In this document: positions 9,407-54,800 of the stretch, piece by piece | Layout of the letters: each line of letters opens with the position of its first letter | Position numbering within the stretch: position 1 is the stretch's first letter | Source: Aphrocallistes beatrix | Lineage: Eukaryota > Porifera > Hexactinellida > Sceptrulophora > Aphrocallistidae | Length of the DNA: 64,000 bases | Direction of reading: 5' to 3' | Assembly: GCA_963281255.1 (NCBI GenBank) | Contig: OY725492.1 | Location: forward strand, 434,001 to 498,000 | Notes under the pieces: model-generated | Seen by the model: only the letters and a program-made list of their open reading frames with translations | Told to the model about the DNA's origin: nothing | Database searches by the model: none | Program-made: the position numbers and the translations under genes

Positions 9407-9727
9407 TCACAGGTACTGTGTGCTAGATGAGTAGGTTGTTTCTATTCTAGGATATCTAGACCTTATAGCGTCTATCTACTAGTCTTTTTAGGTTTTATAC
9501 TTTTATTGATTTAGTTTTGTCGAAATATATACATTTATATCTTCTGTAGATCCATTATTGCACTAAAAAGGGGTGAATAGAAGCTATTAGAAATGTTAAA
9601 ATTAAATTCATTTTCTCTATTTTGTTCTGTATAAACGTTGAGGTTTCCAGTTGGATGCTAAGTATCTTCTAGTAAACGAATGGAATAAACATGTATGAAT
9701 TTAACTAGAACCATAGACACGATTAGA

Positions 9728-24800: not shown

Positions 24801-27800
24801 TGCGTCTACATACGGTTCTAGGTCTGAATGTTCCTTCTTGAAATTCCTATCACAAATTTCCAAAATGAAAATTGACTTAAGAACATTGCCTCATTGTGAG
24901 GCGTAACAATGCTTAATCATTATATTTATAAAATTAATTAAAACGTTTGGAAAATTTAAAAAATTGTGTTGCAATTTTTAAAAAATTTAACATGAATACC
25001 TTTAACAGGTACTTGTGAGTATACCACCTGTGAACGAGGACATTCAGAGAAATCCTAACTCGAATAAAAATAGAATTTTGAAGGGAAAAGGCTAAGAACG
25101 TAAGCGATGACGAAAATTTGCAGAGAGAGAGTGGAAGTACTTCAAATTTTGTTCAGGTTCAAGATTATCTGAGGTATCACCATTAACCTGTCTAAGTTCT
25201 TGTCGTCTAACTGGCTGGCGGAGTAATTCTCAGTAAACTTCTCAACGTGTTGCTTAATCTGAGTTATTTCATCACTGGTGTGCAGTTTGTGTTCTCGACT
25301 TCGTTCCAACAAACTCAGTAGAAACTCTTCCTGCTTGATCAGTTCCTATAGAATACAACTAATAATTATGTGAAACGTAAATGCATAATCTTTTTGCAGA
25401 GGTTAACATATTAAAAATCAAAATCAGAGATACAAGCATGGTCAAACAAACGATGTTTATTATTATAAAAAATCTTGATTTTTGTTACTACTGATTTATG
25501 CGTCGAGGTCCATTATAATATAATACATTCTGTCCAGTCTGAATTCCCGTAACATAGTGATAACCAAGGGATTATCTAGGAACGCAAGACGCTCCTTTAG
25601 GCGTATGATTTTAAGCCCGAAAGTGTTTAGGAGCGTGAAATTTTCGAATATTCTCCAATTTACCCTGTATTACTTGTATAATGTTATTCATAGATTTAGA
25701 CGTATGAAAATTTATGGGTTTGAGATTAGGAGCGTATCTCTGGAGGGCTGTATAATATACCTTGATAATAACTCCGCGATAGAACCATTATCAAAGTAGC
25801 AACACTGGTTTTAACATCGAAATTAATGACCAAATTAAAAAACAATCTAATTTATAAACGAATCAGGCAATTAACTAAATATTTTCTCCAAATATATGGA
25901 ACGTTTATATTAACTTCACATGCTTGTACCCTGTGGATATTCTGTTAATGTTCGCGGGTCCCAGGTAAGAATAAATAGGGAAGCATGAAATATTGTTAAC
26001 TTATCCAAGGAGAGCACACAAAATATAATACATACTTTATTATAAATATATATACAAGTAGCAATGATCCAACAAGATCAGTAGTTTCTCTTTAAGAGAA
26101 GTTCTGTAGAAATGCGGGATATATTCTATAAATAGAATGGACCCCAGGTCATTGTCGGGATAATTATAATATACTATATTAATAGTTTGACGTAATTCCG
26201 GAGGAAAATATAGTTGATTTTCAATCCTACACATTGGTGAGGAGACATCTAGCTAGGATGAGAAGGTTTATACACATCATAAGACCACAATTCCTTTTAT
26301 TTATTTATAGCATGTGTACCAATTCACACCAGTTTAGTTCGTCTTATAATAGTTTGAACTTTATTGTAACATACAACTACAGTAGAAGATTGTGAATACG
26401 AATACCAGGGGACTGTCGAAATTTGTTCATATTATAAGGAATTTGTATTAATTTTCCTCCCTAGGGGATAAATATCTGTTTGTATTATCTGGAGTTTCAA
26501 ATTGTCTGTGTTCGTATTAATGAGGTTCTACTATAATTGTAAACATAGCATTATGTAATGCTAAGATGGGGATATTCATAAATATTTCTCTTCTAACATT
26601 TCTTCCAAGATATACTAAATACATGTTGTCTTGGAAAAAAACGAGTTAGAACAGTGATATGCTATCCTTGGCATTTTACTCAAAAATACGACGAAAGTAA
26701 ATGATAATTGCCAAAGGAACCATAACCAGTAGATGGGAGTAAGTTGCAGAAAGTTCGCCGGACTCATTCACAAATACAAAATCGTATAATTAGTACGAAA
26801 TATGCACTACATGTATATGTAGATATATTATATACAGTATATAGGGATAGTCTTCATAACCTTAATTGATAATCTGAGGTAATAAAACATTCATTATTAT
26901 TGAGTTTAGAGCACAGAAACAAAACTATGTATAATAACAGCACACATTTAACTATAGCAGTGGTTCCTAGCCTGGGGTCTGTGGAAGTCCACGGGAGATA
27001 TCAGGGATCCATTTTTAAATTTGTATTATAGTTAATGGTAAGGGGTCAACAGAATATTGTTATAAGGGGTACACAGCAAAAAAAGGTGAAAATCGCTGAA
27101 TTATAGACTTTTCCACTACAAAATCAGTTGTATCGTCTCCTTAAGAGAGGTTCTAGTTTTTCATAATTGTAGCGATACTGATCTTCTTTCTCGGTACATC
27201 TCTTCACACACTTGATGATGAGTGGGGCGAATGTTATACCGCATAAAGGTAAGAAGAGGGAGAGAAGGTATATCGTAATAACTAGTGAATCTATTAAAAG
27301 TATTAACCTTTGAAGCCAAGCTCGGTCATATGAAAGAAATGATGGAATTATTATTTTCTGGTCTATTTGGAGCTGGCAAGAGTAGTGCATAAAAATTTTA
27401 ATTGATCTCCATACAAAAAATAGTACTTCAACGAGAATTAATAAGAATGTTGAAATCAGTGAGACGATACGAAATATGCGATAGAAATTGTATGCTGATA
27501 ATTGTGTATTATAGAATACTCTGTCGTTAGAATGGAGTTTGATTTCCATTAGATGAGACCTGAGTACACGAGATAGAATGGAAGTGGCTCTCAGTAACAG
27601 AATCCAGTTAGTTAAACCGATAATAGGAAAGATAAAAACCATGAAAATCCAAGTGTACTTTGTTGTGCAGATTCCAGTCAAAATACATTGAATAGAACAC
27701 CAGATGAGATACTTAATGAGAGTAGGTTTGAAAGGATGGTTAAGGTATCTCGTAGCGAGATAACGAGATAGGATTGCAAGAAAAGTCAAATGCAAAGCAA

Positions 27801-30800
27801 AGAGTAAAGAAAATGAATGTAGAGTAGGAAGAACAAATTGGTATTTGTTATAGATCGGTAAATAGCCAAATATATATTGGCAATGCAAAAATCCCATTAC
27901 GAAATCTGATTCATCGTCATGTGGATGTCCTAATATCCGTTCCATTGTGAAGTAACTTCCTGCACCAATAAAGCTAGCAACTTCAAAAGAACAACACACG
28001 ATCATCAGGATATATTTAGTGAAATGAGTTTTCAGGTTGTATAGTCTCCTCTGTTTAGAAAGATATTGTACATCTGAGTAGAGGGGATGTAGAACAGGGG
28101 TTTGTTTACAAGTTTTGTATTCTTTGTATATTCTCCAGCATTTTACAATAAAGTAAATAATCCAGCCAATAATTAGTATAATGGTTAAAAAACTTAACGG
28201 CACAATTATAAATGTATTAATGAAATCTCTTATTTTATTATTTATCGAAAACATTCTTTATATTAAATCCGTATATTGAATTTAGACTTAAATACTTAAT
28301 ATATACACGTCTGTTATTTCTCACTGTTAGCATCTGTACCAAATTACATCTATTTAGTTCGGCCTCAGAATAGATGTAACAATATTTTAACACACAAGCA
28401 TAGCATTATGTAATGCTAAGATGGGGATATTTCACAAATACTTATCTTTTAGCTAAGCCTCCAAGACTACTAAATACATCATATAGAAAGTAGAGAACAA
28501 AGGTATTCTATATCTTAGAATGAGTGCTATGATGCAATAATGGATAATAATTCCTGCGGGACATGTCCTATGAAATAATCTGAAATGCAGTGAGTTATAT
28601 TGTAGCTGTGTTTGTTTGAAGACGATGGAAATGTTTGTAGTAATCCAGCCAAATAAAACATGTAGAATAGTAGAAGCATATTTCGAGTCAAATTCAGGAG
28701 AAATCCATTGAGGAAGAGAACATTGTGAGCGGCCTTATAGGTAGCGTTGATTTGAGTGTCTGGGAATCTCTTTATCATCCGATGAATCCAAACATAGCAA
28801 TACATTCATCAAAACATGTGACAATAGATAATAACTTATTGAAGTATCGTTTTGGAAGGGTGCATACTAGATACACTCCCAACCTTAATGATCCATTCCT
28901 CATAGCCTCGTACTCTGACCAGGCTTTTAGATTGTCTCTTATTTATTTGTTTTGCATATAACCGCTAAAATACTATATTATCCATTTTATCCATTGAAGT
29001 TAACATTCGGAGAAATGGGACGATTTAAAAAATTAAAAAAATCCTTGTTTTGGGCAATGAGCTTGTTAAACTTTCTTTTTCTTCACCTAAATCCCCCTTT
29101 CTGTCTGTACTTTGGGGTTTTAGGTAAATAAATAAGTTTAACAAGTTCATTGCCTAAAGCAAGGTTTCATTTAAAATGGTCAAAATCCATCATTTTTAAC
29201 CTTAACATCAAGGCTTGATTTGGATGATAGGTAATTAATAATCCCATCATTGAACTATGGATTTTGCTACTCATTTCAGGTTAAGTCATTTAGGGCGGGG
29301 AAACCTTCCAGAAATGCGGGATCCATGCTATAAATAGAATGGACCCCAGGTCATTGTCGGGATAATAATAACAAGCGCGCTTCGCTTGCTTGCGCTGCGC
29401 GGCTGGCGGACACTTTGTGTCCGCCGGAGGCTCCCTTCGGTCGCCTGGGGTCACATTGGTTAATTATAAGGGGGATAACATCTCTAAATATGTCCATCTT
29501 AGTGTTAAAATCGATTTCACTCGAAAAATCACCAAATTTGTCAATTTTAAAATTTTTGATGCGTAATGATGACGTCATGACAAAGTGATGAGTCATCATT
29601 TCTTGATGACTCATCACTTCGCATCATATGTGAGGTATGTTAGTATACAGTTTGTCCCATAATTATTGCAACATACATTTTTGATATAAATTTGATTATA
29701 TAGGAAGAATGAATCGTCTTAAACTAATTCTATTGAGTCTAAAAGTTAATGATAGACATAGTAACTAATAATTAATTTTAAAACCATTGTTTGTGACACA
29801 CAATTCGCAACGTCGCCTCATTGATTTATAGTAGGGCTTTAGAAACTCCGGGGTGATAGAATTCCAAATTTCTTCAAGGCGAGTTTTCATGTCACCAATT
29901 GTCTTTGGACGATTCCTTTTCAGTTGATTTTTTATCCATGCGAATAGGTTTTCGATGGGGTTTAAGTCTGGGCTCTGACTGGGCCAATCTAAGACATTAT
30001 TAGGAATGTTGTCTGATATCCACTTCTTCGCCCGCTTGCTGGTATGCTTGGGATCATTGTCCTGTATCAAGAACCACTTCTTATCGTGGTAAACCTTGGC
30101 GTTTTCTACCAAATGCCACCCTAATATCTTCACGTAGAAAGCGGCATCCAAATTATGACTAAAAATGCATAAGGGAAACGTCCCCATTGAGGAAAAGGCA
30201 GCCCACATGTGGACTTTACTGGAATGTTTAACAGTAGGAATAACCCGTTTTTGGTTCCCTTTAGTCCACATTCGTACTTTCCCCGCATGCAACCAAAAAC
30301 TAGCCTCATCAGAGAATACTGCATGGCACCAATGCTTATTTTTGTTTCTTAGTGCTCACTCGATCCGTTTCAGCCTATTTTTCTCTGACAACATCGGAAC
30401 CAAACTAGGATAAGGCTTCGAGTATTTCATCTTCTGAAGGGTCCTATGTACGGTGCTCTTGGACACACTGATACCATGTTTGGCTTCTATATCATTCGAT
30501 ATTTATCTGACTGGCTTTTGCAAATCAGTGTTTACATATTTAGCACATTTATACTTGACGCTCTGATTGAGTTTTGCTGGTCTTCCTGCTCCCTTTCTGT
30601 GTTCAACCGTACCAGTCGAATTGTGTCTCTTAAGAACCCTCCAAACTGTTGTCCGGTTGACACCGATAATGGAAGAAATTTCCTTGACACTGTGCTTCTC
30701 ACCTTCGGAAAGTGTAAGGATCTGTTTACGGATATCCTCTCTTGACATTTTATGACTGGTTAAACGAAAATGGTGATTCTCTATGTTAGAACACTATCTC

Positions 30801-33800
30801 AGAAGGAATTCAGACAAAAATGATGACGCAACAGGAAAAAAATATGGATAATACGAAAAAAAATTCTTCAAAAAAATATATCCAAGCTGAAAAATATCGA
30901 ATAACGTACATAGGAACTAAAAATAATGCGTTAGTAGCTTATGCAATGTAAACATAGCTGAAACGTATAGTTCAATGAGAAATAGCCTATGTTGCAATAA
31001 TTATGGGACAAACTGTACATATTCTATTAAAATTTCAGCCTTCTATCTCCTATAATGGCTGAGTTATGCTCGAATAACGCTGTTGCTTAACTTTTAAAAA
31101 TGTGACAATGACGTCATAATTCCATGATGAGTCGACATTTTGCTCTGAACTCAGAACTTACTGGAGCCATAGCCAATAGACTCCCACATGCCAAAAATCA
31201 GCCTTCTGCGCCCGGCAGTTTCTTCAATCAATTCGTTACAGATATATAGATATAGATATACTACGTACTTGTATATATATAAATATACAATAATCGAGTT
31301 TTAATAGTAAGGATATATATTAATAGTTTGACATAATTCCGAGAGGAAATATAGTTGATTTTCAATCCTACACATTGGTGAGGAGACATCTAGCTAGGAT
31401 GAGAAAGTTTATACACATCATAAGACCACAACTCTTTTTATTTAGAGTATTTGTACCAATTTACACCAGAGTTTAGTTCGTCTTATAATATGTTGAACTT
31501 GATTGGAACATACAACTACAGTAGAACATCGTAAATTCGAATACCAAGGGACTGTCGAAATGTGTCCATATTATCCAGAATTCGTATTATCTGGAGTTTC
31601 AAATTGTCCGTGTACGTAGTAATGAGGTTCTACTATAATTGTAAACATAGCATTATGTAATGCTAAGATGGGGATATTTCATAAATATTTCTCTTCTAAC
31701 ATTTCTTTCAAGATATACTAAATACATGTTGTCTTGGAAAAAAACGAGTTAGAACGGTGATATGCTATCCTTGGTATTTTACTCAAAAATACGACGAATG
31801 TAAATGATAATTGCCAAAGGAATCATAACCAGTAGATGGGAAGAGTAAGTTGCAGAAAGTTCGCCGGACCCATCCACAAATATAAAATCGTATAATTAGT
31901 ACGAAATATGCACAATATGTATATGTATTATAGATATATTATATATAGTATATAGCAGGGGTTCTTAACCTTTTTGTCCTTGCGCCCCCTTTTATAACCA
32001 TTAAATCATTATGACCCTTGACTTTGAAATCTATTTGTTAAAAGTACACATTTTAATTATTTTGATTAATCGAGTAACTGATTGAGTAAAGTATTATTGA
32101 ATTAGTGGAGGGTTGTAAATACCAGTTAGGGAGGTATATAGTATTGTCTATAGGATATATACATACACACTGAAGTCCCATTATAACCAAATAGGTTATA
32201 AGGAGGTGGTTATTTGTCCCTTTTAAAATCAGATTCTAAATTCACATCATGGATGATATTCGAGGCACCAAGCTTCAAATGTAAGTACTAGCCATGTCAA
32301 AAATTTTAAGATTTACACACTTGAAAAAATCAAAATGTAAAATTCGAAATCAAATGCCACGTCCCCCTGAAATGATCATGACGCCCCCCAGGTTAAGAAC
32401 CTCTGGTATATAGGGAAAGTCTTCATAAACCTTAATTGATAATCTGAGGTAATAAAACATTCATTATTATTGAGTTTAGAGCACAGAAACAAAACTATGT
32501 ATAATAACAGCACACATTTAACTATAGCAGTGGTTCCTAGCCTGGGGTATGTGGAAGTCCACGGGAGATATCAGGAATCTATTTTTAAATTTGTATTATA
32601 GTTAATGGTAAGGGGTCAAACAGAATATTGTTATAAGGGGTACACAGCAAAAAAAAAGGTGAAAATCGCTGAATTATAGACTTTTCCACTACAAATCAGT
32701 TGTATCGTCTCCTTAAGAGAGGCTCTAGTTTGTCATAATTGTAGCGATACTGATTTTCTTTCTCTCTACATCTCTTCACACACTTGATGATGAGTGGGGC
32801 GAATGTTATACCGCATAAAGGTATGAAGAGAGCGAGAAGGTATATTGTAATAAATAGTACTTCTATTAAAAGTATTAACCTTTGAAGCCAAGCTCGGTTA
32901 TATGAATACAATGATGGAATTATTATTTTCTGGTCTATTTGAAGCTGGCAAGAGTAGTGCACAAAAATTTTAATCGATCTCCATACAAAAAATAGTATTT
33001 CAACGAGAATTAATAAGAATGTTGAAAACAGTGAGACGATACGAAATATGCGATAGAAATTGTATGCTGATAATTGTGTATTGTAGAATACTCTGTTGTT
33101 AGAATAGAGTTTGATTTCCATTAGATGAGACCTGAGTACACGAGATAGAAAGGAAGTAGCTCTCAGTAACAGAATCCAGTTAGTTAAACTGATAATAGGA
33201 ACGATAAAAACCATGAACATCCAAGTGTACTTTGTTGCGCAAAATCCAATCAAAATACATTGAATAGAACACCAGATGAGATACTTAATGAGAGTATGTT
33301 TGAAAGGATGGTTCAGGTATCTCATAGCGAGATAACGAGATAGAATTGTAAGGAGAGTCAAATGCAAAGCAAAGAGTAAAGAAAATGAATGTAAAGTAAG
33401 AAGAACAAATGGGTATTCGTTATAGAGACGTAAAAATCCATAGGTACTATTGCAATGCAAAAAACCCATTACGAAATCTGTTCTACCTTCATAATGTTGA
33501 TGTTCTAACTTCGACTCCAATGTAAAGTAACTTCCTGCACCAATAAAGCTAGCAACCTCGAAAGAACAACACACGATCATCAGGATATATTTAGTGAAAT
33601 GAGTTTTCAGGTTGTATAGTCTCCTCTGTTTAGAAAGATATTGTACATCTGAGTAGAGGGGATGTAGAACAGGGGTTTGTTTACAAGTTTTGTATCCTTT
33701 ATATATTCTCCAGCATTTTACAATAAAATAAATAATCCAGCCAATAATTAGTATAATAGTTAAAAAACTTAATGGTACAATGATAACTGTATTAATGAAA

Positions 33801-36800
33801 TCTCTTATTTTATCATTTATAAAAAACATTCTTTATATTAAATCCGTATATTGAATTTAGTCTTAAATCCTTAATATATACACGTCTGCATTATCCTATG
33901 ATGCAATGTTATTTCTCACTGTTAGCATCTGTACCAATTTACATCCATTTAGTTCGGCCTTAGAGTAGGTGTAACAATATTTTAACACACAACTTATCAC
34001 AAGCATAGCATTATGTAATGCTAAGATGGGGATATTTCATAAATATTTATCTCTTGTCATACCCTCCAAGACTACTAAATACATCATATAGAAAGTAGAG
34101 ACCAAAGTTATTCTATATCTTGGAACGAGTACTATGATGCAAAGATGGATAATAATTCCTGCGGGACATGTCCTAGGAAATAATAGAATAATTCTGAAAT
34201 CAGTCCAAAATCTCCTTATATACTCTTATTAGTCATGATGAAGTTATCTCCCTAAGGGTAAGCCTAAATATTACGTACTATAAAAACTTATAAGTGACTA
34301 CATTTGATGAAGATACACAATTGTTATTTTCTATTACAGGGTGGCTCATAAGTTCTGATACAAGCTTCATTAGGTATAAAATTTTTTATACTCAAACAAT
34401 CTTAGTTATTATGGTCTTTAGAGATCGTAATTCGAATATTTTCAATGGTTTTAAAAGATTTTTCGAGTCTAAGACCTGGGAACTGTGATTTGTAGGGTGA
34501 ATTTTATGGAGAAAAAATGTGTCCTGGCACGCAGCGAAAATCGAGAATCAAGGTCACTGCTTCTGTAAAAAATGTCTTCATAATCGATGTTCTATGACGA
34601 TTTAGCACCAGATACCTTTTATTCACCATGGAGTTATTTCATAAATCCATTGAATTCATTATCAGAAACGAGAGAAAGTTATTATTTCACGAGATCAAAT
34701 TAGGTACATTTAGCAAAATCACCCAAAATTGCACTTTTTTCCACATCACCAAAAATCTGATCCAAATGGTTCTCAATATGTACTGATATAAACATCCTTT
34801 AATTCTACAAATTTAGAGTGTTCGAGAAAAATGTGAGAGCCAATTTTTCCTAGAATTTGAATACTCTAGAATGATCATTTGGAAAGCAGTGGGCCCTGAT
34901 TCTCGATTTTCGCTGCATGCTAGGACACATTTTTTCCTCATAAAAATCACCATACAAAACATAGTTCCAGGTCTTAGACTCTAAAAATCTTTTAAAATCA
35001 TTGAAAATATTCGAATTACGATCTCTAAAGATCATAATAACTAAGACTGTTCGAGTATAAGAAATTTTATACCTAATGAAGCTTGGCACAGAACTTATGA
35101 GCCACCCTGTACATTAACCATGATATATGTAGACTTACTGCTGGGTGCTTATACATGTATCTTGATGCTATCAACATTAGTGTGGGAGGCTACTTTGTAA
35201 AGATGATTCTCTTCTGTTTTAAATTATACCGTGATTGCGTAGAGGAAGCAAAAACTGACAAACTCTTAACTCGGTAACTCTTCAGAGCTAGACTCCACGA
35301 CAAAACCGAAATAGTTTAGTACTTTTCTGTTAGCAATCCAATCACTGTCTGATTTATCGGGAGAAAAGTTCGGAAGAAATTGCATAGAAGTTCGCCGAAC
35401 CCATCCACAAATACGAAATCATATAACTAGAATGAAATATGCACTACGTATATATGTATATATATATATAATGCATATAGTTATAGGGATAATCTTCCTG
35501 TACCTTAATTGATGATCACGAAGTAATAAAACATTCATTATAAAGATTTTCTCAAGAAGAAACACAAACAAAATAAAAGAATATTACACATACGTTTTAA
35601 TTATAGCAATGATCTAAGCCAGGAATCCGTGGTGATCCATGGGAGATATCAGGGGTCCAGTTTTAAATTTGTATTATGGTTAATGGTAAGGGGCCAACAT
35701 AATATTGCTATAAGGAGTTTACAGGTAAAAAGGCTGAAAACTTTTCCACTACAAGGTCAGTAGTGTCTCCTTAAGAGAGGTTCTAGTTTTTCATAATTGT
35801 AGCGATACTGATCTTCTTTCTCTCTACATCTCTTCACACACTTGATGATGAGTGGGGCGAATGTTAGACCGCATAAAGGTATGAAGAGAGCGAGAGTGTA
35901 TACTATTAAACACAGTACATCAAGTACATGCATCGTATACCGCAACAATTCTGCGTTATTTGAACTGAATGGTTGTATTATTATACTTTGACCTATTTGT
36001 ATCTGGCAGGTGTGATAGAAAAAAACTTTAAGAGCTCTCCAAACAAAAAATAAGACTCCAGCCAGAATTAGAAAGAATGTTGATATGAGTAAGACGATAC
36101 GAAATATGCGATAGAAATTGTATGCTGATAACTGTGTTTTGTAGAATACTCTGTTGTTAGAATAGAGTTTGATTTCCATTAGATGAGACCTGAGTACACG
36201 AGATAGAAAGGAAGTAGTTCTCAGTAACAGAATCCAGTTAGTTAAACTGATAATAGGAAAGATAAAAACCATGAAAATCCAAGTGTATTTTGTTGAGCAA
36301 AATCCAATCAAAATACATTGAATAGAACACCAGATGAGATACTTAATGAGATTTCGTTTGAAAGGATGGTTAAAGTATCTCGTAGCGAGATAGCGAGATA
36401 GGATTGTAAGGAGAGTCAAATGTAGTGAGGTGAGTAAAGGAACTGAATGTAGAATCGGGAGATAAAATGAGTAAATGTCATAGAGTTCCAACCAACTAAA
36501 ATATACATAGGTGCAATTTAAATAATCTAGCACGAAATATGTGTTATTGGTAAGTCGTGGTAATTTCGCTTCTAAAAGACAGCAACAGCAAAAAGCAAGC
36601 ATACCAATAACCTCAACTAAACAACACACGATCATTATAGTGTATTTAGTGAAATGAGTTTTCAGGTTGTACAGTTTCCTCTGTTTAGAAAGATATTGTA
36701 CATCTGAGTAGAGGGGATGTAGAACAGGGGTTTGTTTACAAGTTTTGTATTCTTTGTATAGTCTCCAGCATTTTACTATGAAGTAAATGATCCATCCAAT

Positions 36801-39800
36801 AATGAGTGCAAAAGTGAAAACATTTAATCATTAAATGTTTTCACTTTTGCACTCATTATTGGATGTTTTAATGAAAGAAACGTAAGAGCTCCAATATATT
36901 CTAGCATTTTTAGTGAGAGTATGACATTCATTATTATATTTTAAATTATTTTGTTGAACTCAGTCTTCTATTTATAGTGTTCCTCTTCCTCATAATTACG
37001 TCTTAATCACATAATATCATCCCTCACTTTCAGCATTTGTAATAGAATTTTCACATCAGCTAGTCCAGCATTATATAATGTAGTTACATTCTAAAATGAC
37101 GAAATAGTATTACAAGCATAGCATAATGCATGCAAATATGGAGATATTTCATAAATATTATTCTTTTGGGATATCTTTGAAGAATAACTAGATACATCAT
37201 ACAGAAAGCACACGAACAAAGTTATTTCTATATCTTTAGAAATACAGTTTGCACAAGGGTAAAAGTAGATATAATTACAGAGGGAGGTACCGATATTGTA
37301 ATTCTAGGAATTGACAAAATATACGTTCATCATTATTGATTTTAGAGCACACAGACAAAAATATAATAATAGTATACATATTATTATAGCAGTGGTTCCC
37401 AGCCTGGGGTCTGTGGAGGTCCACGGGAGATATCAGGGGACACAAGTTCGAAATTATTATTATAGTTAATGGGTTATATCTTGAAAACCGCAAGAGCTAG
37501 ACATTCAAATTTAAATAAATTTGATAACCAATAGACTACTTCTTTTTAAGCGATAATATAATTTATATGTCTAAATTCAATGGTTTACGAGTTATTAGAC
37601 AATTCATCCTATTGGTCACATTTGGTAATTTATCGAGTATCTCGTAAACCATTGAATTTAGACGTAGACATTATTAATGCTTAATGGAAAGTAGTCAATT
37701 CACTATCAAATGGAGTTAAATTTAAAGTCTAGCCCTTGCGGCTTTCAAGATATGACCCAAACTGACCAAAATACGTGTCCATAGTACACTGGAATGTAGT
37801 AACATTCCATTAAAAAAACCCCCAAATTTTTCGCATCAACCCATTCACAGCTCAGTTCTATGCAAAAAAATTCATAATAAAAGCACTTAGAAGTGCCCTT
37901 AAATGGCGTCATCATTACGCATCAAAAAGTTAAAAATTGACAAATTTGGTGATATTCCGAGTGATATCGATTATAATATCAGTAAGACAGACGTAATTAT
38001 AGATGTTATCCACTTTACGTATAATTAATCAATGTGAGCCTAGGCATCCAAAGGACGCCTCCAGCGGAACAAAGTGTTCGCTAGCCGCGCAGATCAAGCA
38101 AGCGAAGCGCGCTTGTATTATATATATATACGTAGTTATAGGGATAGCCTTCCTATACCTTAATGATCACGAGGTAATAAAACATTCATCATTATTGATT
38201 TCAGAGCACATAAACAAAAATATAATAAGAGTACACATATTAATTATAGCAGTGGTTCCCAGTTTGGGGTTTGTGGAGGTCCATGGGAGATATCAGGGAT
38301 GTTTTAAATTTTTATTATAGTTAATGGTAATGGGTCAACATAATATTGTTATAAGGGGTACACAGTCAAAAAAAAGGAGGAAAACTGCTGAATTATAGAC
38401 TTTTCCACTACAAAATCAGTTGTATCGTCTCCTCAAGAGAGGTTCTAGTTTTTCATAATTGTAGCGATACTGATCTTCTTTCTCTCTACATCTATTCACA
38501 CACTTGATGATGAGTGGGGCGAATGTTATACCGCATAAAGGTAAGAAGAGGGCGAGAAGGTATATTGTAATAAATAGTAACTCGGGTTTCGGCCCATAAT
38601 TTGCACACCGTTGAAGTAATGGCTGGAATGAATACCCATTGATATTTTGCAAAATTGTGTCGTCGTAAAAATACAGCAAAAGTTGAGTAAGAATCAAGAA
38701 CAGGTGAAAGTTTGAATTTAGTATGCTATAACGCAATTGTTGCATATCTTGGCACTAGAATAGTTATAATCTGAACATCTCATAGTTACTATCATGTATA
38801 AGTACTAGTGAAATATTAAAATTATAACTATCAAATAAAAAATCTTATTCAGCAAGGATATAATTATATTAGTCTTTGAGATATCGTTTTATCCTTTAAA
38901 TCCCCGTTTTTATCTTTTAAATAAAAATACGGGTTAAAATGTGAGAATATGTACACATACAGTAGAGCGTCGTTATTATGAACACCGAAAGATGGTCGAA
39001 TTTCTTCCATATTACCTGGGTGATGTATTTTCCTCCGTAGGGATGAAATATATGTTCGCTCGTTTTACGAGGTTCTGCCGTTATTCCATACAATGATTGA
39101 AACGTTTGAAATTATTAAACATGAAACGAAGTTAACTTTATTTAAATCGAGCATACAAAATATCACATTTACACTATACTTTATGTATTAATTACAGACT
39201 ATTGTATCTGTGTACATCTCAAGGTCAGTAGTGTCTCCTTAAGAGAGGTTCTAGTTTTTCATAATTGTAGCGATACTGATCTTCTTTCTCTCTACATCTC
39301 TTCACGCATTTGATGATGAGTGGAACGAACGTTATACCGCATAAAGGTAAGAAGATGGAGAGTATGTATACAATAATAAATAGTGAATCAAATAAGATGA
39401 TCAGCTCTTGGATCCAATTTCGGTTATCGAGTTCGAATGGTGGTATTATTACAGTTTGATCTATTTTAATCTGGCAAGAGTAGCGTAGAAATATTTTAAT
39501 TGCTCTCCATACGAAAAATATTACTTCGAAAAAAATTACAAAGAATGTTGAAATGAGTAAGACGATACGAAATTTGCGATAGAAATTGTATGCTGATAAT
39601 TGTGTATTGTAGAATACTCTGTTGTTAGAATAGAGTTTGATTTCCATTAGATGAGACCTGAGTACACGAGATAGAAAGGAAGTAGCTCTCAGTAACAGAA
39701 TCCAGTTAGTTAAACTGATCATAGGAATGATAAAAACCATGAACATCCAAGTGTACTTTGTTGAACAAAATCCAATCAAAATACATTGAATAGAACACCA

Positions 39801-42800: not shown

Positions 42801-45800
42801 TGAGACCTGAGTACACGAGATAGAAAGGAAGTAGCTCTCAGTAACAGAATCCAGTTAGTTAAACCGATAATAGGAAAGATCAAAACCATGAACATCCAAG
42901 TATACTTTGTTGAACAAAATCCAATCAAAATACATTGAATAGAACACCAGATGAGATACTTAATGAGAGTTCGTTTGAAAGGATGGTTAAGGTATCTCGT
43001 AGCGAGATAACGAGATAGAATTGCAAGGAGAGTCAAATGCAGAGCAGGGATTAAGGAAACTAAATGTAAAGTCGGAATAACTAAGGGGTAGTCGTTATAT
43101 AGTGCAAACCATCCATATGCATTTGTACAATGTAGATATCCTACTACGAGATATGTTGTATTGTTAAGTGGTTGTAACTTTGATTCTATTATCCAGTAAC
43201 TTCCCGCAGCAAGAAAGCTAGCAATCTCGAAAGAACAGCACACAATCATCAGGATATATTTAGTGAAATGAGTTTTCAGGTTGTACAGTTTCCTCTGTTT
43301 AGAAAGATATTGTACATCTGAGTAGAGGGGATGTAGAACAGGGGTTTGTTTACAAGTTTTGTATTCTTTAAATAGTCTCCAGCATTTTACAATAAAGTAA
43401 ACAATCCATCCAATAATGAGTGCGAAGGTGACACTAACTGTAATAAACATGAATATTCTAACATATTCTAGAAATTTTAGTAAGAATATGGCACCCATTA
43501 TGCTTAATTATTTTGTTGAATTTACTCTTCTACTTATACTCCTCTCTTTCCTTAATTGTATCTTTATTACATAATATTAGTCCTCATTGTTAACATTTTT
43601 ATCGATTTAAACACCAATTTAGTTCGACTTTATATTACACGTAACTAAATTTAAATGACAAAATATATTGCAAGCACACTATATGCTAAGGTGGAGATAT
43701 TTCATAAATATTTTTTCTTTTGGGATATCTTCTAAGAATTACTAAATACTACATCATATAGAAAGCACACGAACAAAGGCATTTATATATCTATAGAAAT
43801 ACAGTTTACAAAAGGTGAATTTAAGGTGGATAATAATTACAGAGGGAGGTACCGATATTGTACTTCTAGGAATTCACAAATATTTTTGAAATTAATTGAA
43901 TTCTAATTTACCTGTGGTAAATAGACAACAAAATATTAACTAATAAATTAATATGCAGTAGAAAGTTAAGACGAGATAGTTTCAGGGAAAATCATTGAGA
44001 GAAGAGAACATTGCAACTTTTGCATATTTTGGTACTACTCATCAAAAGAAGTACTTAGAATATTTATGAAATATCCATCCAATATACCCCGAATTTTTAT
44101 AAATATTTTTGTATGAACATTATTTGTGATCAAATATGTCACCAAATTTAAAAAAACACACACATACACATACACATACACAAAGAAATTAGCACTACTG
44201 GGCAAAAATGAAGTATGGACTCGGGTTTCTCTCCATTACCGATGAAAAATTCTTAATGCCATTTAAAAAGGTTAATTATACGTATAGTGGAATTCGCTTA
44301 TTAGCAATATTGCTCTATTAGCAACCAATCTTCAGGTCCCAGGTGAAGATTTTGTGTTAATTATGTGAGACCTGTTTCATGCTATTTTCACCCATATGCT
44401 ATTTCCACCCAAACCATTGATATACCATGGATATTCCATCTCTATGCTACTTTCACCCAAGTGTTGATTAGTAGATTATCGTTTTTATGGTTTCGATCAT
44501 TGTTGTTGATGATGATTACAATGGTATTTATTTTAGCTCTACGTATATTTACTATTCATACATTTATAACAATAATCACATAGTTTAAAACTCATGATTG
44601 TGCATAACTGTATATAAATAATACCATTGTAATCATCATCAATAACAATGATCGAAACCATAAAAACGATAATCTACTAATCAACACTTGGGTGAAAGTA
44701 GCATAGGGATATAATATCCATGGTATATCAATGGTTTGGGTGGAAATAGCATATGGGTGAAAATAGCATGAAACAGACCTTATATACAGTAGGCTATGCT
44801 TCAGTCTATTGTGTTGATGTTGAAAATTTTCAAATAAATCCTAGTTTTGAACAGAGTACTTGTTAAACTTCCTATTCTCCACGAAAAACCCCCCAAAGGG
44901 GGATTTTGGAGAACCAAATCGTCACAATAACCTGTAACAGGAGTTTTTCGAAAAATTTCAACAGTCAAATCTTGTATCAGTCTAACTCAGTCATTTTTCG
45001 GTTGACAGGAATCGACGCAATGGTCCTGGCTTTCATCTCATCCGCTTAGAATCGAGAAACGAAGCCGTTTTAACGAGTTAAGCTGTTTTAAAGTTTAAGG
45101 TCTCCCCAATTTTGCTGGTGTTTAAAATTTAACAGCATAACCCGAAAAAACGGTCTCCTATCTTGATCGATTAAGACATTAGGTGAAAGCTGGATGTCAA
45201 CAGAATCACGATAGCATGAAAACGCACTGACTTAGAGTGATACAAAGCTTGGTGGTTGATAATTTTTGCAAAAATGCCCCTGTCAAAAATTATTGCCCTA
45301 TGTGACGATTTTGGTACTCCAAAAGCCCCTTTGGGGGATTTGGGGGATTTTAGTTGGAGAATAGGAAAGTTTAACAAATATTTTAACCAAAACAAGACTT
45401 TATTTGAAATTTTCAAAATCAACACAATTTATCACGAGCATAGCATTATGCAATGCTAAGATTGGGATATTTCATAAATACTCTTTTGGCAAATCCTCCA
45501 AGACTACTGAATACATCATATAGAAAGTAGAGAACAAAGTTATTCTATATCTTAGAATGAGTAGTATGATGTAATGATGAGTAATAATTCCTGCGGGACA
45601 TGTCCTAGGAAATAATAGAATAAATCTGAAATTCAGTGAGTTATAATGTAGCCGTGTTTGTTAGAAGACGATACACAATCTTTTCTGTATAATACATTCA
45701 AAATTATGTATATTTAGTAGTGGAAGAATATTTCGAGTCGAATTCAAAAATCCATTCAGGGAGAGAAGAATGCGACCTTATAGGCAGCTTTGAGTTCAAT

Positions 45801-48800
45801 CGATGAATCCAAACATAGCAATGCATCATCAAAACATGTGACAATAGATACTAACTTATGTTGAGTTTTCCAGATAAACCAGAAACTGAGAAAATTCATA
45901 TAAGAAGACAGTTTACTCTGCTTAATTAGGACACTGGTTTATGATCAGTAAACCGCTTAATTGGGACAAAAAGTTTGGATGACATTGCACTGAAGTATCG
46001 TTTTGGAAGAGTCTGTCTAGTAGATTCAATCCTATCCTTTACTGACCCACTTCTCATAGCCTCGTACTATAAACAGGCTTTTAGATTGTATCTTATTTGT
46101 TTGTTTTGTATATAATTAACTGCTAAAATTCTAATTTTATCCTTTAACATCAAGATTCTATTCGGATAATAGATAATTAATATAGTTTGGTGTAATTCCA
46201 GGGTTAAATATAGTTGATTTTTATAATCCTACACACTGGTGAGGTGCATCTAACTAAATGATAATTACTAAAGGAATCATAACCAAAAGTTTGAGAGAGT
46301 AAGCTGTGGAAGGTTCGCCGGGCCCATCCACAAATACAAAGATCGTATAATTAGTACGAAATATGCACAATCTGTATACACTAAATACGGGATAATATTC
46401 CCATACTTTAATTGATAATCACGAAACAATAAAACATATATTTATTATTATTGATTTTAGAGCAAATAAACAAAATATAGTAATAGTACACATATTAATT
46501 ATAGCAGTGGCTCACCTCCACAGACCCTGGGGTCTGTGGAGGTACATGGGAGATATCAAGGGGGCATAGGTTCGAAATTATTATAATAGTTAATGGTAAG
46601 GGGTCAATCAGGGGATGCATCTAAAAGGCTGGAAACCGTTAAATTATAGACTTTTCCACTACAAAATCAATTGTATCGTCTCCTTAAGAGAGGTTCTAGT
46701 TTGTCATAATTGTAGCGATACTGATCTTCTTTCTCTCTACATCTCTTCACACACTTGATGATGAGTGGGGCGAATGTTATGAAGCATAAAGGTAAGAAGA
46801 GAGCGAGAGTGTATACTATGAAACATAGTGTATCAAGTAAATGCATTATAGACCGTATCAAATCTCGGTTATTCGAATTGAAAGATGGTATTATTATACT
46901 TCGACCTATTTGTATCTGGCAGGTGTGATAGAAAAAAACTTTAAGAGCTCTCCAAACAAAAAATAACACTTCAGCCAGAATTAGAAAGAATGTTGATATG
47001 AGTAAGACGATGCGAAATATGCGATAGAAATTGAATGCTGATAACTGTGTATTGTAGAATACTCTGTTGTTAGAATAGAGTTTGATTTCCATTAGATGAG
47101 ACCTGAGTACACGAGATAGAAAGGAAGTAGCTCTCAGTAACAGAATTCAGTTAGTTAAACCGATAATAGGAAAGATAAAAACCATGAAAATCCAAGTGTA
47201 CTTTGTTGAGCAAAATCCAATCAAAATGCATTGAATAGAACACCAGATGAGATACTTGATGAGAGTTCGTTTGAAAGGATGGTTAAGGTATCTCATAGCG
47301 AGATAATGAGATAGGATTGCAAGGAAAGTCAAATGCATGGCAAAGAGTAAGAAAACTAAAAGAAAATTCGTAATAACTAAAGGGTAGTCGTTATAGAGTG
47401 CAAACCATCCGGATACATGTGTACAATGTAAATATCCTATCACGAGATATGTTGTATTGTTAAGTGGTTGTAACTTTGTTTCTATTATCCAGTAACTTAA
47501 AGCAGCAAGAATGCTAGCAACCTCGAAAGAACAGCACACGATCATCAGGATGTATTTAATGAAATGAGTTTTCAGGTTGTACAGTTTCCTCTGTTTAGAA
47601 AGATATTGTACATCTGAGTAGAGGGGATGTAGAACAGGGGTTCGTTTACAAGTTTTGTATTCTTTGTATATTCTCCAGCATTTTACAATAAAGTAAACAA
47701 ACCATCCAATAATAAGCGTAACAGTTAGAAGACTTAATGGAATAATTATAAACGTAGAAATAAAAACTCTTACATCTCTTCCTAATACATACAAGTCAGC
47801 CATTACATTAAAGTAAATGTAATCAATTTAGTTTTCTATTTATATACGTTTATATTATCCTCCAGATGTCTTATGATAACATAATATTATTTCCCAGTGT
47901 TAGCATTTTCACTATATTTGTTTGGTTCGGTTTTAAGTTTGGCATAAGTTCTAGAATACTAACAGACATTAAAAGCTTAGCATTATGTGATGATAATACA
48001 GGGATTTTACATAATTATTTTAACCTCTTATATCTCCAAAGAAATACTAGATAGATTATATAATAGGAAGTATAACATCAAATATATTCTGACAATTATA
48101 TTGAAATATTTACTAGGAGTATGATAGTGCTTCCTATCTTTAAAACAGGGTTCTTGAATTTTTTGCTCAAAAATCCTGTCCAATTTTGAGTACTAATGTT
48201 TAGTTAGGAGATATTGAAGAAATGATCAAATTTAATATGTTTGAGGCAGTGCTGCATGCCCCCCTCCTCCCTCCCCCAACTTTTACAAAAAAAACTACAC
48301 CTATCAGCCTATGCAAGTAGAACTCTTTTGGGAAAATGAGGTCTTTATTCATACTTTGGTCCGCTATTGGTACATCACTGGCGCATTGACAAAAATCAAT
48401 ATTCAGCAAGAATTAAAAACCTATGAAAAATATGAATTCAGTATGCTATCAAACGAAAGGTAGTCGGACACTTCGTCGCTGGACATTTCGTCGCTGGACA
48501 CTTCGTCGCCGGAACTTTCGTCCCTGGAATTTTCGTCCCCGAACTTTTGTCTCATTAAAGCTAAATAAACAGGCACTAATATGTAAGGAACGGAAAGTGA
48601 GGCTTTTGGAGTGGAGTATGTTTTTAAAAAAAGGTGAAAATGAGGCATTTTGATTGAGAAATCAGTAAGTGCGAAAGGGACATTTCAGGGGACGAAAATT
48701 CCAGGGACGAAAATTCCGGGACGAAATGTCCGAGCGACGAAATATCCGGGACGAAATGTCAGGCGACGAAGTGTCCGCCATTCCAAACGAAATAGCTATA

Positions 48801-51800
48801 CAGACACACTTGTACGTTAGTAACTAGTATATATTAATATTAGTTATAAACTGTCCAAGAGCAAAATCGGATTCTACCTATAGTCGGCACTCGTTATAAA
48901 GTGCATCAGGGATGGTCGAAAATTGTTAGTCTTTACCGTGTTCATACTCGTGAGAGTCTTGTCTGTCTTGTAATATATAACAAGCGTGAAAATAAGTATA
49001 TTATATAATTGTCATACTAATGATTGAGAAACATTGAGAAAATCACACAAAAAATGTAGTTGGTTTTGCAAGTATTAATAATGAGCACACATAATTATCA
49101 CATTTACGTTCTATTTTTACATTTAATAATAAAATAGAGTAGAGCAATAAGTTTTCCACTACAAAATCAGTTGTGTCTCCTTAAGAGAGGTTCTAGTTTG
49201 TCATAATTGTAGCGATACTGATCTTCTTTCTCTCTACATCTCTTCACACACTTGATGATGAGTGGAGCGAATGTTATACCACATAAAGGTAAGAAGAGGG
49301 CGGGAATATATAGTATGAAGAATAGTTCTTCTAGTAAAGATATTACCTCATCAAACCACAATCGGCTATCGAAGTAGAATGATGGTATTATCACAGTTTG
49401 ATTTATTTGAATCTGGCAAGAGTAGTGTAGAAATGTTTTAATCGCTCTCCATACGAAAAATAGTACCTCGAAAAGATTTACCGAGAGAGTTGAAATCAGT
49501 AAGACAATGCGAAATATGCGATAGAAATTGTATGCTGATAATTGTGTATTGTAGAATACTCTGTTGTTAGAATAGAGTTTGATTTCCATTAGATGAGACC
49601 TGAGTACACGAGATAGAAAGGAAGTAGCTCTCAGTAACAGAATCCAGTTAGTTAAACTGATAATAGAATTGATTAAAACCATGAACATCCAAGTGTACTT
49701 TGTTGCGCAAAATCCAATCAAAATCCATTGAATAGAACACCAGATGAGATACTTAATGAGAGTTCGTTTGAAAGGATGGTTAAGGTATCTCGTAGCGAGA
49801 TAACGAGACAGGATTGCAAGGAGAGTCAAATGCAGAGCAGAGAGTAAGAAAACTAAAAGAAAATTCGTAATAACTAAGGGGTAGTCGTTATAGAGTGCAA
49901 TCCATCCGTATGCATTTGTACAATGTAAATATCCTATCACGAGATCTGTTGTATTGTTAAGTGGTTGTAAATTTGATTCTATTATCGAGTAACTTCCTAT
50001 ACAAAGAAAGCTAGCAACCTCGAAAGAACAACACACGATCATCAGGATGTATTTAATGAAATGAGTTTTCAGGTTGTACAGTTTCCTCTGTTTAGAAAGA
50101 TATTGTACATCTGAGTAGAGGGGATGTAGAACAGGGGTTCGTTTACAAGTTTTGTATTCTTTGTATATTCTCCAGCATTTTACAATAAAATAAACAAACC
50201 ATCCAATAATGAGCGTAACAGTTAGAAGACTTAATGGAATAATTATAAACATAGAAAGAAAAACTCTTAAATCTCTTTTCAATACATGTAAGTCAGCCAT
50301 TACATTAATGTAAATGTATTCAATTTAGTTTTCTATTTATATACGTTTATATTATCCTCCAGATGTCTTATGATATCACAATATTATTTCCCAGTGTTAG
50401 CATTTTCATTATATTTGTTTGGTTCGGCTTTAAGTTTGGCATAAATTCTAGAATAACAGACATTAAAAGCTTAGCATAATGTGATGATAATACAGGGATT
50501 TTACATAATTATTTTAACCTCTTATATCTCCCAAGAAATACAATAGGAAGTATAGCATCAAACATATTCTGACAATTATATTGAAATATTTACTAGGAGT
50601 ATGATAGTGCTTCCTATCTTTAAAACACTGTTCTTGAATTTTTTGCTTAGAAAACCTGTCCAATTTTGAGTGCTTATGTTTAGTTAGGAGATATTGAAGA
50701 AATGGTCAATTTTAGTATGTTTGAGGCAGTCCTGTGTCATTAGAGGTTTCGACTTAATCTCGCTCGCTCTTGCCCCCCTCCCTCCCCCCACTTTTACAAA
50801 AAACTTATGCCTATCAGCCTGTGCAAGTAGAACTCTTTGGGGAAAATGAGGTTTTTATTCATACTTTGGTTTGCTATTGGTACATCGCTGGCGCATTGAC
50901 AAAAATCAATATTTAGCAAGAATTAAAAACCTATGAAAAATATGAATTCAGTATGCTATCAAACGAAAGGTAGTCGGACACTTCGTCGCTCGGACATTTC
51001 GTCGCTGGACACTTCGTCGCCGGAACTTTCGTCCCTGGAATTTTCGTCCCCGAACTTTTGTCTCATTAAAGACTAAATAAACAGGCACTAATATGTAAGG
51101 AACGGAAAGTGAGGCTTTTGGAGTGGAGTATGTTTGAAAAAAGGTGAAAATGAGGCATTTTGATTGAGAAATCAGTAAGTGCGAAAGGGACATTTCAGGG
51201 GACGAAAATTCCAGGGACGAAAATTCCGGGACGAAATGTCCGAGCGACGAAATATCCGAGACGAAATGTCAGGCGACGAATCGTCCGAGCGATGAAGTGT
51301 CCGCCATTCCAAACGAAATAGCTATACAGACACACTTGTACGTTAGTAACTAGTATATATTCATATCAGTTATAAACTGTCCAAGAGCAAAATCGGATTC
51401 TACCTATAGTCGGCACTCGTTATAAAGTGCATCAGGGATGGTCGAAAATTGTTAGTCTTTACCGTGTTCATACTCGTGAGAGTCTTGTCTGTCTTGTAAT
51501 ATATAACAAGTGTGAAAATAAGTATATTCATAGCCTACTATACATAAGGCCTCACAACTGATTGTGGATTTTGGACCAGGGATGCGGAGGAAGACCGTTG
51601 AACTAATGCATGAGCTGCCTTAAATCATTTACAAAGCACAATAGAGCTTAGGAATATATTATCAGCATATATAAATATGGTGTCAAAGTACCCATATCCA
51701 TTGTTAAAAATTTTATTAGTCACCATATGGTTGCGCAATAGGTTATATTTGTGACAAATTTGGTGATTTTCAGAGGCCGTTTAGGGGCACTTCTAAGTGT

Positions 51801-54800
51801 TTTTACTGTAAAATTTTTCGCATAGAACTGAGATGTGAAATGGGTTAATACGAAAAATTTCTAATTTTTTCATGGAATGTTGGTACATTCCACTGTTGCT
51901 ATGGAAACGTGTTTTGGTCATTTGGCGTTATATCTTGAAAACTGCAATGGCTACACATTCAAATGTAATTCCATTTGATAGCGAATATACTACTTCCTAT
52001 TAAGTGATAATATAATTTCGACCTCTAAATTCAATAGTTTATGAGATATTCGACAATGTACCATATTGGTCACATTTGATAATTTGTCGATTGTCTAGCT
52101 CTTGTGGTTTTCAAGATATGACCCAAACTGACCAAAACACGTTTCCATAGCAACACTGGAATGTACCAACATTCCATAAAAAAATTAGAAAATTTTCGTA
52201 TTAACCCATTCACATCTCAGTTCTATGCGAAAAATTTTACAGTAAAAACACTTAGAAGTGCCCCTAAACGGCCTCTGAAAATCACCAAATTTGTCACAAA
52301 TATAACCTATTGCGCAACCATATGGTGACTAATAAAATTTTTAACAATGGATATGGGTACTTTGACACCATATTTATATATGCTGATAATATATTCCTAA
52401 GCTCTATTGTGCTTTGTAAATGATTTAAGGCAGCTCATGCATTAGTTCAACGGTCTTCCTCCGCATCCCTGGTCCAAAATCCACAATCAGTTGTGAGGCT
52501 TTATGTATAGTAGGCTATGGTATATTATATAATAGTCATACTAATGATTGAGAAACATTGAGAAAATCACACACAAAATGTAGTTGGTTTTGCAAGTATT
52601 AATAATGAGCACACATAATTATCACATTTACGTTCTATTTTTACATTTAATAATAATAGAGTAGAGCAATAAGTTTCCCACTACAAAATCAGTAGTGTCT
52701 CCTTAAGAGAGGTTCTAGGTTTTCATAATTGTAGCGATACTGATCTTCTTTCTCTCTACATCTCTTCACACACTTGATGATGAGTGGGGCGAATGTTATA
52801 CCGCATAAAGGTAGGAAGAGGGCGAGAATATATAATATGATGAATAGTTCATCTAGTAAAGTTATTATCTCATCAAACCACAATCGGCTATCTAAGTGGA
52901 ATGATGGTATTATCACAGTTTGATCTATTTGAATCTGGCAAGAGTAGTGTACAAATATTTTAATCGCTCTCCATGCGAAAAATAGTAGATCGAAAAAAAT
53001 TACCGAGAGAGTTGAAATCAGTAAGACAATGCGAAATATGCGATAGAAATTGAATGCTGATAATTGTGTATTGTAGAATACTCTGTTGTTAGAATAGAGT
53101 TTGATTTCCATTAAATGAGACCTGAGTACACGAGATAGAAAGGAAGTAGCTCTCAGTAACAGAATCCAGTTAGTTAAACCGATAATAGGATTGATAAAAA
53201 CAATGAACATCCAAGTATACTTTGTTGAGCAAAATCCAATCAAAATACATTGAATAGAACACCAGATGAGATACTTAATGAGATTTCGTTTGAAAGAATG
53301 GTTAAGGTATCTCATAGCGAGGTAACGAGATAGGATTGCAAGGAGAGTCAAATGCAAAGTAGAGAGTAAGAAAACTAAATGTAAAGTCGGAATAACTAAG
53401 GGGTATTCGTTATAGAGTGCAAACCATCCGGATGAATATGTGCAATGTAAATATCCAATTACGAGATCTGTTGTATTGTTAAGTGGTTGTAATTTTGATT
53501 CTATTATTCAGTAACTTCCTATACAAATAAAGCCAGCAACCTCGAAAGAACAACACACAATCATCAGGATATATTTAGTGAAATGAGTTTTCAGGTTGTA
53601 CAGTTTCCTCTGTTTAGAAAGATATTGTACATCTGAGTAGAGGGGATGTAGAACAGGGGTTTGTTTACAAGTTTTGTATTCTTTATATAGTTTCCAGCAT
53701 TTTACAATAAAGTAAACGAGCCAGCTTGCAATGAGTGCAGTAGTTAGAAGAATTAATGGAAAAATTATACACGTCTCAGAAAAGACTCTTAAATCTCTTT
53801 GTATTGCAATTGTGCTACCCATTACACTGAAATTAATGTATTGAATTTATTTTTCTATTTATTTATATCTTTGGAGTCACAATAATAAGTTTTCCCACTG
53901 TTAGCATTTGTATCGCTATACCTGTCTAGTTTAGTTGTGTGCTATATTTTGAGCTTAGCATAATGTAATGCTAAGATAGAGATTTTTGATAAATATGTTA
54001 ACCTCTTCCATCCTCGAAGAAATACTCCATACATCATATACTATAAAGTACACAAACAAAAGTTTACTATTATAATGCAAAGGTTTAAACTGACGAAAAT
54101 AAAATAAAGAATACCTGAGTAAACATTTCAGCAGCTAGCAGAGTGAGAACTTTCAACTCTTCCTGATACACAACCTTATCATAGTCTATCTTAACCCGAT
54201 ACAGCTGTTGAATTCTATCGTCCACCTTTTGACACCCCTCTACAATCCCCTGTTCTAACTTAGACATCTCTGACTCTAGTCCCCTCCTGTGTCTCTCTCT
54301 CTCTTCCTTCACTTGCATCACGTGGACCTCCCACTCCTTCTTCTTCGCTTGTAGTTCTGGGTCACCTGTCAAGTCCACTACTCCTAAGAAGTCAGGCTCT
54401 ACCAGCTCCTAGCAGTTGTGGAGCATTTTAGTAGGAGAATATAACTTATCCAATTAGCTATTATAATCAATGTTACATCAAATTAGGATGTTTTGGAATT
54501 CACCTGTTATTTAAAGATAGGGATAAATTCAGACAAATAAAATAACTGAAATAAATTCCCAGTTGACTAATGAGCGTATCTATCAATAAAAAACTACATA
54601 ACTTTTACAAATTTGCATTTATTTTGAAGTTAGGCAATACTCTGAATGTATCCCTAATGGTATATTGTTCTTATCGAATTGACTCCACACTTTTAAAGTT
54701 TATCTGCCCCCAAAAGCAAATTTATGCTTTAACTATTTCGGGAATTTTTTGGTTGTATTCTCATTCTGCAGGGCCTCATCAATGGTCTTCCAAGCACATT

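Follow-up and report, generated by a model that had tools for sequence, protein, structure and literature searches.

A 64,000-nucleotide stretch of the genome of the glass sponge Aphrocallistes beatrix (contig C6, positions 434001–498000 of a 100.5 Mb assembly in 28 contigs; referred to here as the window) contains a tandem array of single-exon genes at positions 27124–53822. Our interpretation is that the array is one of the clusters of a large receptor family, restricted to its lineage, whose single-exon genes encode proteins with the fold of G-protein-coupled receptors (GPCRs); we give this reading a probability of about 0.65. Taken alone, the GPCR fold is very probable from the predicted structure, and a role in sensing waterborne or microbial cues is somewhat better than an even bet. 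At the sequence level no kinship is detectable to any GPCR class tried, and we regard the genes as a new family within a known kind, the GPCR fold, and possibly as a separate class.

The array contains nine places of one gene, all on the minus strand and spanning 27127–53822 in a tblastn search of the window with the five intact proteins (E≤1e-5), which finds no further family places there. From the open reading frame (ORF) list and tblastn, the intact copies are copy 1 (27124–28254, 376 residues, a single exon), copy 2 (32696–33829, 377 residues), copy 4 (39225–40358, 377 residues), copy 5 (42371–43498, 375 residues, taken from the ORF list and used for the structure model) and copy 7 (49167–50300, 377 residues). 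Three others are full length with internal stops: copy 3 (35757–36929) has two adjacent stops in its N-terminal part and an ORF from an inner ATG at 35757–36635, and copies 6 (46667–47803) and 8 (52689–53822) have one stop each, with ORFs of 218 residues (47147–47803) and 208 residues (52689–53315), respectively. A C-terminal remnant (38419–38583, tblastn) retains only the final 53–55 residues. None of the copies has an intron, the gaps between them are 0.6–4.4 kb, and four of the intact proteins are 71–78% identical to the fifth. In a DNA self-comparison the copies align together with part of their flanks, for example over 1.8 kb at 92% identity; the longest repeated unit, within 46652–51528 on the minus strand, pairs 46652–49002 with 49152–51528 (2.4 kb, 90% identity). 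The initial annotation of this DNA had described nine same-strand, intronless copies of 375–377 codons when intact, with intermediate states of decay, and both the coordinates and the three interrupted copies and one remnant bear this out; the internal stops may, however, reflect assembly error or polymorphism instead of decay. Past the left end of the window, at a distance of 23–41 kb (C6:392726–410945), there are a further four copies of full length together with some fragments.

The superfamily to which the array belongs has at least 249 loci in the genome, when six queries (a window copy, the distant member L040 on contig C1, and four further members) are pooled and places less than 400 bp apart are merged; 221 loci span at least 900 bp, and 191 have a family neighbor within 20 kb. 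About 90 loci come from queries of subfamily A, to which the window copies belong, and at least 161 from queries of subfamily B, and the total is a lower bound because all three B queries scored only part of their candidates (the best 114 of 453, 116 of 389 and 110 of 448). A window copy as query recovers at least 100 places, down to E 7.8e-4 (the best 109 of 157 candidates scored). L040 is 24% identical to the window copy over their match, and each of the 114 places that it scored among its 453 first-look candidates has E <1e-70. The two subfamilies are homologous (hhalign 97.6%, E 3.3e-12, 296 columns), and the L040 protein matches the subfamily A profile at E 1e-15. Full-length places mostly consist of one open frame, typically of 360–425 codons, with a minority interrupted by stops or fragmentary. 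On these locus counts, the best reading is that this is the largest GPCR-like family of the genome. We note that two subfamily B places, G000:C4:4694327–4695397 and G000:C5:5535–6605, have identical scores with three queries; the C5 copy is 5.5 kb from the contig start, so that the pair reflects either recent duplication or overlap in the assembly.

Relatives are also present in protein databases, where 30 of the 181 proteins found in two single-protein searches are identical to loci retrieved from this genome. Among the 85 proteins P0036–P0120, 82 have no retrieved A. beatrix locus above 51% identity, only part of the A. beatrix loci having been retrieved, and the search of the genome itself gives few places at the score level of these proteins; from their sequences these 82 probably come from other genomes. 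In a tree of 123 sequences (50 from this genome, 73 others), 68 of the others fall in one clade (support 0.62) and 28 A. beatrix sequences in another (0.50), and separate expansion of the two sets appears likely, though not proven. A profile search of 5.8 billion proteins adds nothing to the proteins already found (best 120 of 136 matches).

Sequence searches do not place the family with any known one, as the initial annotation had supposed in calling it unrecognized. Pfam gives only scattered, unrelated families for five window copies (E ≥0.24), eight families that each match one protein for 99 subfamily A members (E 0.0097–0.095, none of them a receptor family), and nothing better than E 0.18 for 10 distant members; hits of this kind are at chance level. 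Searches of the PDB sequences, with one protein as query and with two profiles, give nothing related (the one hit is an integrase, E 0.42), and PHROGs gives nothing for the window copy and three families of unknown function for L040 (E 0.015–0.27). The 5.8 billion proteins were searched twice with a single protein and once with a profile, and none of the 120, 61 and 120 matches listed carries a Pfam domain or a name. We found no description of a glass-sponge chemoreceptor family in the open-access (PMC) literature, including work on the GPCRs of Oopsacas minuta. The main text of the Aphrocallistes genome paper describes tandem gene clusters, many of them single-exon and the largest with AIG1 domains, and in a word search of that text neither "receptor" nor "GPCR" turns up.

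A topology with seven helices, the N terminus outside and the C terminus inside is supported by charge, hydropathy and a structure model, in agreement with the earlier prediction from seven hydrophobic segments and basic inner loops. Mean hydropathy across 99 relatives peaks clearly seven times, with a weak further peak (0.95) that extends the sixth transmembrane helix (TM6), and a simple count of segments per sequence (n=100) gives seven in 56, eight in 30, six in 10, nine in three and five in one. The mean numbers of K+R and D+E residues are 9.9/1.8, 3.8/0 and 8.8/2.9 in intracellular loops 1–3 (ICL1–ICL3) and 7.5/2.4 in the C-terminal tail, compared with 0.7/1.0 in the N-terminal tail, 2.8/2.5 and 0.2/0 in extracellular loops 1 and 2 (ECL1, ECL2) and 1.2/2.1 at the end of ECL3. 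The model of copy 5 has seven membrane-length helices (residues 2–51, 60–107, 140–170, 175–194, 201–240, 244–288 and 307–374) and a short helix at 130–136, with strands at 116–119 and 122–125 in ECL1 and at 292–296 and 299–302 in ECL3; the latter form a beta hairpin (292–302) between TM6 and TM7 that holds C292. The cytoplasmic ends of TM1, TM2, TM5 and TM6 are long and the TM7 helix has 68 residues, and the N-terminal tail is about 14 residues, the outer loops about 40, and ECL2 very short at about six. All 50 matches listed for each of the subfamily A and B models in VIA-align structural searches are receptors, mostly of class A, and the predicted helix bundle is that of the GPCR fold superfamily; for subfamily B the fold match is the one from VIA-align only. 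Two outcomes had been named in advance as counting against a receptor, a helix number other than seven and a confident match to a known non-receptor membrane family, and neither was found.

Across a diverse set of 53 members from both subfamilies, the residues kept in at least 90% are W31, K80, E91, C124, L161, Y164, L165, P209, L230, C292 and R360. In subfamily A, R163 is present in 97 of 99 members, W184 in all 99 and P209 in 96, and the cytoplasmic end of TM3 reads [TS]RYLA; in subfamily B it reads MKYL, the TM5 proline is kept in 39 of 44 members, and the TM4 tryptophan is absent from the consensus. Neither subfamily has the acidic residue of (D/E)RY. Both C124 and C292 are present in 50 of the 53 members, with one of the two in the other three, and, given that C124 is in ECL1 and C292 in ECL3, a disulfide probably joins these loops. 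In class A receptors the bridge runs from TM3 to ECL2; the conserved pair here does not correspond to that arrangement, and C195 near ECL2, found in 85 of 99 subfamily A members, is not in the B consensus. The initial statement that no GPCR, gustatory-receptor or other hallmark could be recognized holds for sequence searches with Pfam, and needs revision as regards the predicted GPCR-like fold and, in subfamily A, the RYLA near the cytoplasmic end of TM3, the tryptophan in TM4 and the proline in TM5.

Inner and outer segments differ in their evolution. Among the five intact window copies, the ratio of nonsynonymous to synonymous substitution (dN/dS; Nei-Gojobori, with pairs pooled and not independent) is 0.36 for cytoplasmic segments, 0.92 for outer segments and 0.64 overall; a value of 10 for TM5 is an effect of the near absence of silent change in that helix and is not used. 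Silent divergence is 0.07 in ICL1, ICL2, TM4, ECL2, TM5 and ICL3 and 0.31 in the N-terminal tail, TM1, ECL1, TM3, TM6, ECL3 and TM7, with TM2 and the C-terminal tail left out of both groups. The contrast is reached in 6 of 367 shifts of the labels along the gene and in none of 10,000 column shuffles, and three other clusters of four copies each differ in the same direction (0.19/0.57, 0.07/0.34 and 0.08/0.15, inner/outer). Inner silent divergence is 0.33–0.50 between clusters on different contigs, compared with 0.14 between the window cluster and its neighbor on the same contig. These values are suggestive of local homogenization of the inner part, most simply by gene conversion. Clustered protocadherins, although unrelated as proteins, offer a parallel in mode of evolution, as gene conversion keeps their shared part alike within a cluster and the outer part diversifies. 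Growth of the family by tandem duplication and loss of copies through stops is the best explanation of its present state, and the receptor-like mode of evolution first suggested by gene number, spacing and decay gains support from the conserved inner and variable outer segments; a chemosensory or allorecognition role would fit the gene number, the turnover and the variable outer surface.

A conserved inner face and a variable outer one are what is expected of receptors that bind many ligands and signal through a single transducer. In the mechanism that we propose, seven helices would be arranged N-out/C-in with the C124–C292 disulfide tying the outer face together, and ligands would probably bind at the variable outer loops and at the outermost parts of TM1, TM3, TM6 and TM7. 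Binding would be passed to the conserved cytoplasmic face, comprising ICL1, the RYLA of TM3, ICL2, ICL3 and the proximal tail, which would engage a shared partner; a heterotrimeric G protein would be the simplest, given the GPCR fold and the presence of G-alpha genes in the genome. Within each cluster, gene conversion and purifying selection would keep the inner segments alike while the outer segments diversify, and the outcome would be environmental chemoreception in a glass sponge.

Several observations weigh against this interpretation. A Foldseek search of PDB with the copy 5 model gives no match at E≤0.001, from which we take the bundle to be clearly distinct from the solved classes; the best E-value is 0.016 (FZD7, 9epo_A, TM-score by query 0.40), and the query-normalized TM-score does not exceed 0.48 among the 50 matches listed. 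There is no DRY aspartate, the TM3 residue in subfamily B is lysine rather than arginine in 44 of 44 members, and NPxxY is absent by eye from both consensus sequences, that of TM7 in subfamily A being LPLxCxTxxPLI. Comparisons by hhalign with class C (four of 36 sequences) and class A (one sequence) receptors of the same genome reach at most 0.5%, which we do not count against kinship because the references are so thin. As to gene conversion, the inner/outer grouping was chosen after the first dN/dS analysis, the C4 cluster shows the contrast weakly (the 0.08 and 0.15 above), and a Sawyer-type run test of 36 pairs gives none significant after correction (best p 0.0035), so that the case for conversion stays suggestive.

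The strongest alternative, to which we give somewhat less than an even chance, concerns origin and is compatible with the proposed role: the proteins could be very diverged class A (rhodopsin) GPCRs beyond the reach of Pfam, comparable to the sponge-specific groups among the 126 rhodopsin-type GPCRs of Amphimedon queenslandica, several of which are in adjacent clusters of 2–8 genes with 51–74% identity (PMC4302439). Class A receptors, AqRho-A to E included, share with the array family a predicted N-out fold of seven helices, the clustering of similar genes side by side, an R/K-Y-L near the end of TM3, a TM4 tryptophan (in subfamily A) and a TM5 proline, and account for most of the structural matches listed. 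R163 of the RYLA, W184, P209 and E91 in TM2 are roughly at R3.50, W4.50, P5.50 and D2.50, the generic positions of class A, without superposition residue by residue. The genome also has a single 7tm_1 match, L001 (G000:C10:4157164–4158087), a single-frame receptor of 618 residues in which DRF and NPxxY-type motifs can be seen by eye. However, 7tm_1 is found in none of 99 members at E≤0.1 and, at E≤1, in none of 10 distant members, and the Amphimedon set was itself gathered with Pfam. The array family further departs from class A in lacking NPxxY, in its cysteines in ECL1 and ECL3 rather than TM3 and ECL2, in its six-residue ECL2, and in its long cytoplasmic helix ends and TM7 helix; subfamily B moreover lacks the TM3 arginine and, by consensus, the TM4 tryptophan.

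Alternatives that concern function fare less well. Immune or allorecognition receptors, whose outer face would recognize microbes or non-self tissue instead of dissolved food and chemical cues, would account for the tandem turnover, disrupted copies, fast outer loops and cluster-wise similar inner part, features of the genome that are also found in many immune families; known allorecognition receptors carry ectodomains, for which the short N-terminal tail and outer loops leave no room, and we regard this option as unlikely. Still further down we place ligand-gated channels of the insect odorant and gustatory receptor type, which together with gustatory-receptor-like proteins also have seven helices and large chemosensory families, and which the long cytoplasmic extensions of TM5–TM7 recall. 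Insect receptors of this type are N-in with an ion-channel fold; here the positive charge falls on the opposite loops, predicting N-out, no Pfam match to them occurs in 99 members, and the structural matches are GPCR-type receptors, with no channel fold among the 50 listed per search, an absence that is not exclusion. Non-receptor membrane proteins (a scramblase, transporter or structural protein) expanded by tandem duplication would suit the weak Foldseek E-values and are about as improbable: the matches listed by VIA-align for the two models are receptors throughout, and a conserved transport path predicts something other than a conserved cytoplasmic and a variable outer side.

Returning to a GPCR-fold receptor family, we tentatively raise the prospect, at somewhat less than even odds, of an independent GPCR class that originated and diversified within the lineage, probably in glass sponges. 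It would be distinguished by an ECL1–ECL3 cysteine bridge, a helical cytoplasmic stalk and hundreds of single-exon genes forming an olfactory-type repertoire of a neuron-less animal, in which local gene conversion within clusters maintains one common coupling face and selection drives the outer face to diversify. The remaining known classes differ in several respects. Bitter receptors of class T (TAS2R) are 10% identical to the array family, which has no TAS2R Pfam match, and their cysteine pattern is different. Class F (Frizzled/Smoothened) provides the best Foldseek E-value, yet there is neither a Frizzled Pfam match nor, with so short an N-terminal tail, a cysteine-rich domain; for class C, a 7tm_3 Pfam match is likewise absent. 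The RSF (Remi-sans-famille) receptors and other orphan seven-helix receptors of choanoflagellates, described in a study with Oopsacas among its proteomes, resemble the array family in having no other domains and in lying outside previously described GPCR families (PMC12716839, in part). In RSF, which that study reports to be missing from metazoans, the loop between TM6 and TM7 contains an additional short helix bearing NxLQxxMNxL (PMC12716839); the array family has the beta hairpin with C292 in this loop, and NxLQxxMNxL is not in its consensus by eye.

Other GPCR-related matches in the genome comprise 36 of class C (31 over the cut-off), three Frizzled and 134 exon-level 7tm_2 matches. Among the last, a dense exon series of the adhesion/secretin type at G000:C4:4.94–5.89 Mb constitutes another large GPCR expansion. 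No Wnt match was found by the method that finds Frizzled, which does not prove absence because the same search found Wnt in no control genome; in Oopsacas minuta, Wnt is lost, Frizzled B is retained and there are eight G-alpha genes, as given in part of PMC10280926.

The window has a GC content of 32–43%. Beside the array on the minus strand is a single-frame receptor tyrosine kinase (22464–24437) that combines an SRCR domain and a kinase domain (Pfam E 8.7e-68) with one hydrophobic stretch; SRCR receptor tyrosine kinases are typical of sponges. A DDE_3 transposase fragment (29765–30271, minus strand, E 9.6e-16), presumably Tc1/mariner-like, lies between copies 1 and 2, and four fold-back elements of 0.4–1.0 kb with 68–91% identity to their own reverse complements occupy gaps between copies (41118–41986, 44372–44776, 44808–45428 and 51529–52519; DNA self-comparison). 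Other genes identified with Pfam are a lysine methyltransferase (1389–2318), condensin II subunit H2 (4331–6453, in two overlapping frames with the N- and C-terminal domains and probably an intron between them), an isocitrate dehydrogenase-type protein (7684–8202), SAP18 (9695–10429) and an NHL-repeat protein (19621–20796), all on the plus strand, and on the minus strand a CFAP43 coiled coil (18225–18761) and a protein of 216 residues (62979–63629) with an Ion_trans match over residues 30–123 only (E 4.8e-9), which we take to resemble a voltage-gated proton channel.

If our interpretation is correct, Pfam profiles fail to detect the largest GPCR-like family in the genome of an early-branching animal, and GPCRs would for that reason be undercounted in Pfam-based surveys of such genomes. 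The contrast between inner and outer segments offers a clean system for studying gene conversion in receptor clusters, and the family would be a new test case for the independent origin of large chemoreceptor repertoires. It may be the animal's main receptor set for its surroundings, and would then offer a concrete molecular entry point for asking how its water, bacteria or neighbors are sensed by an animal that has no neurons.

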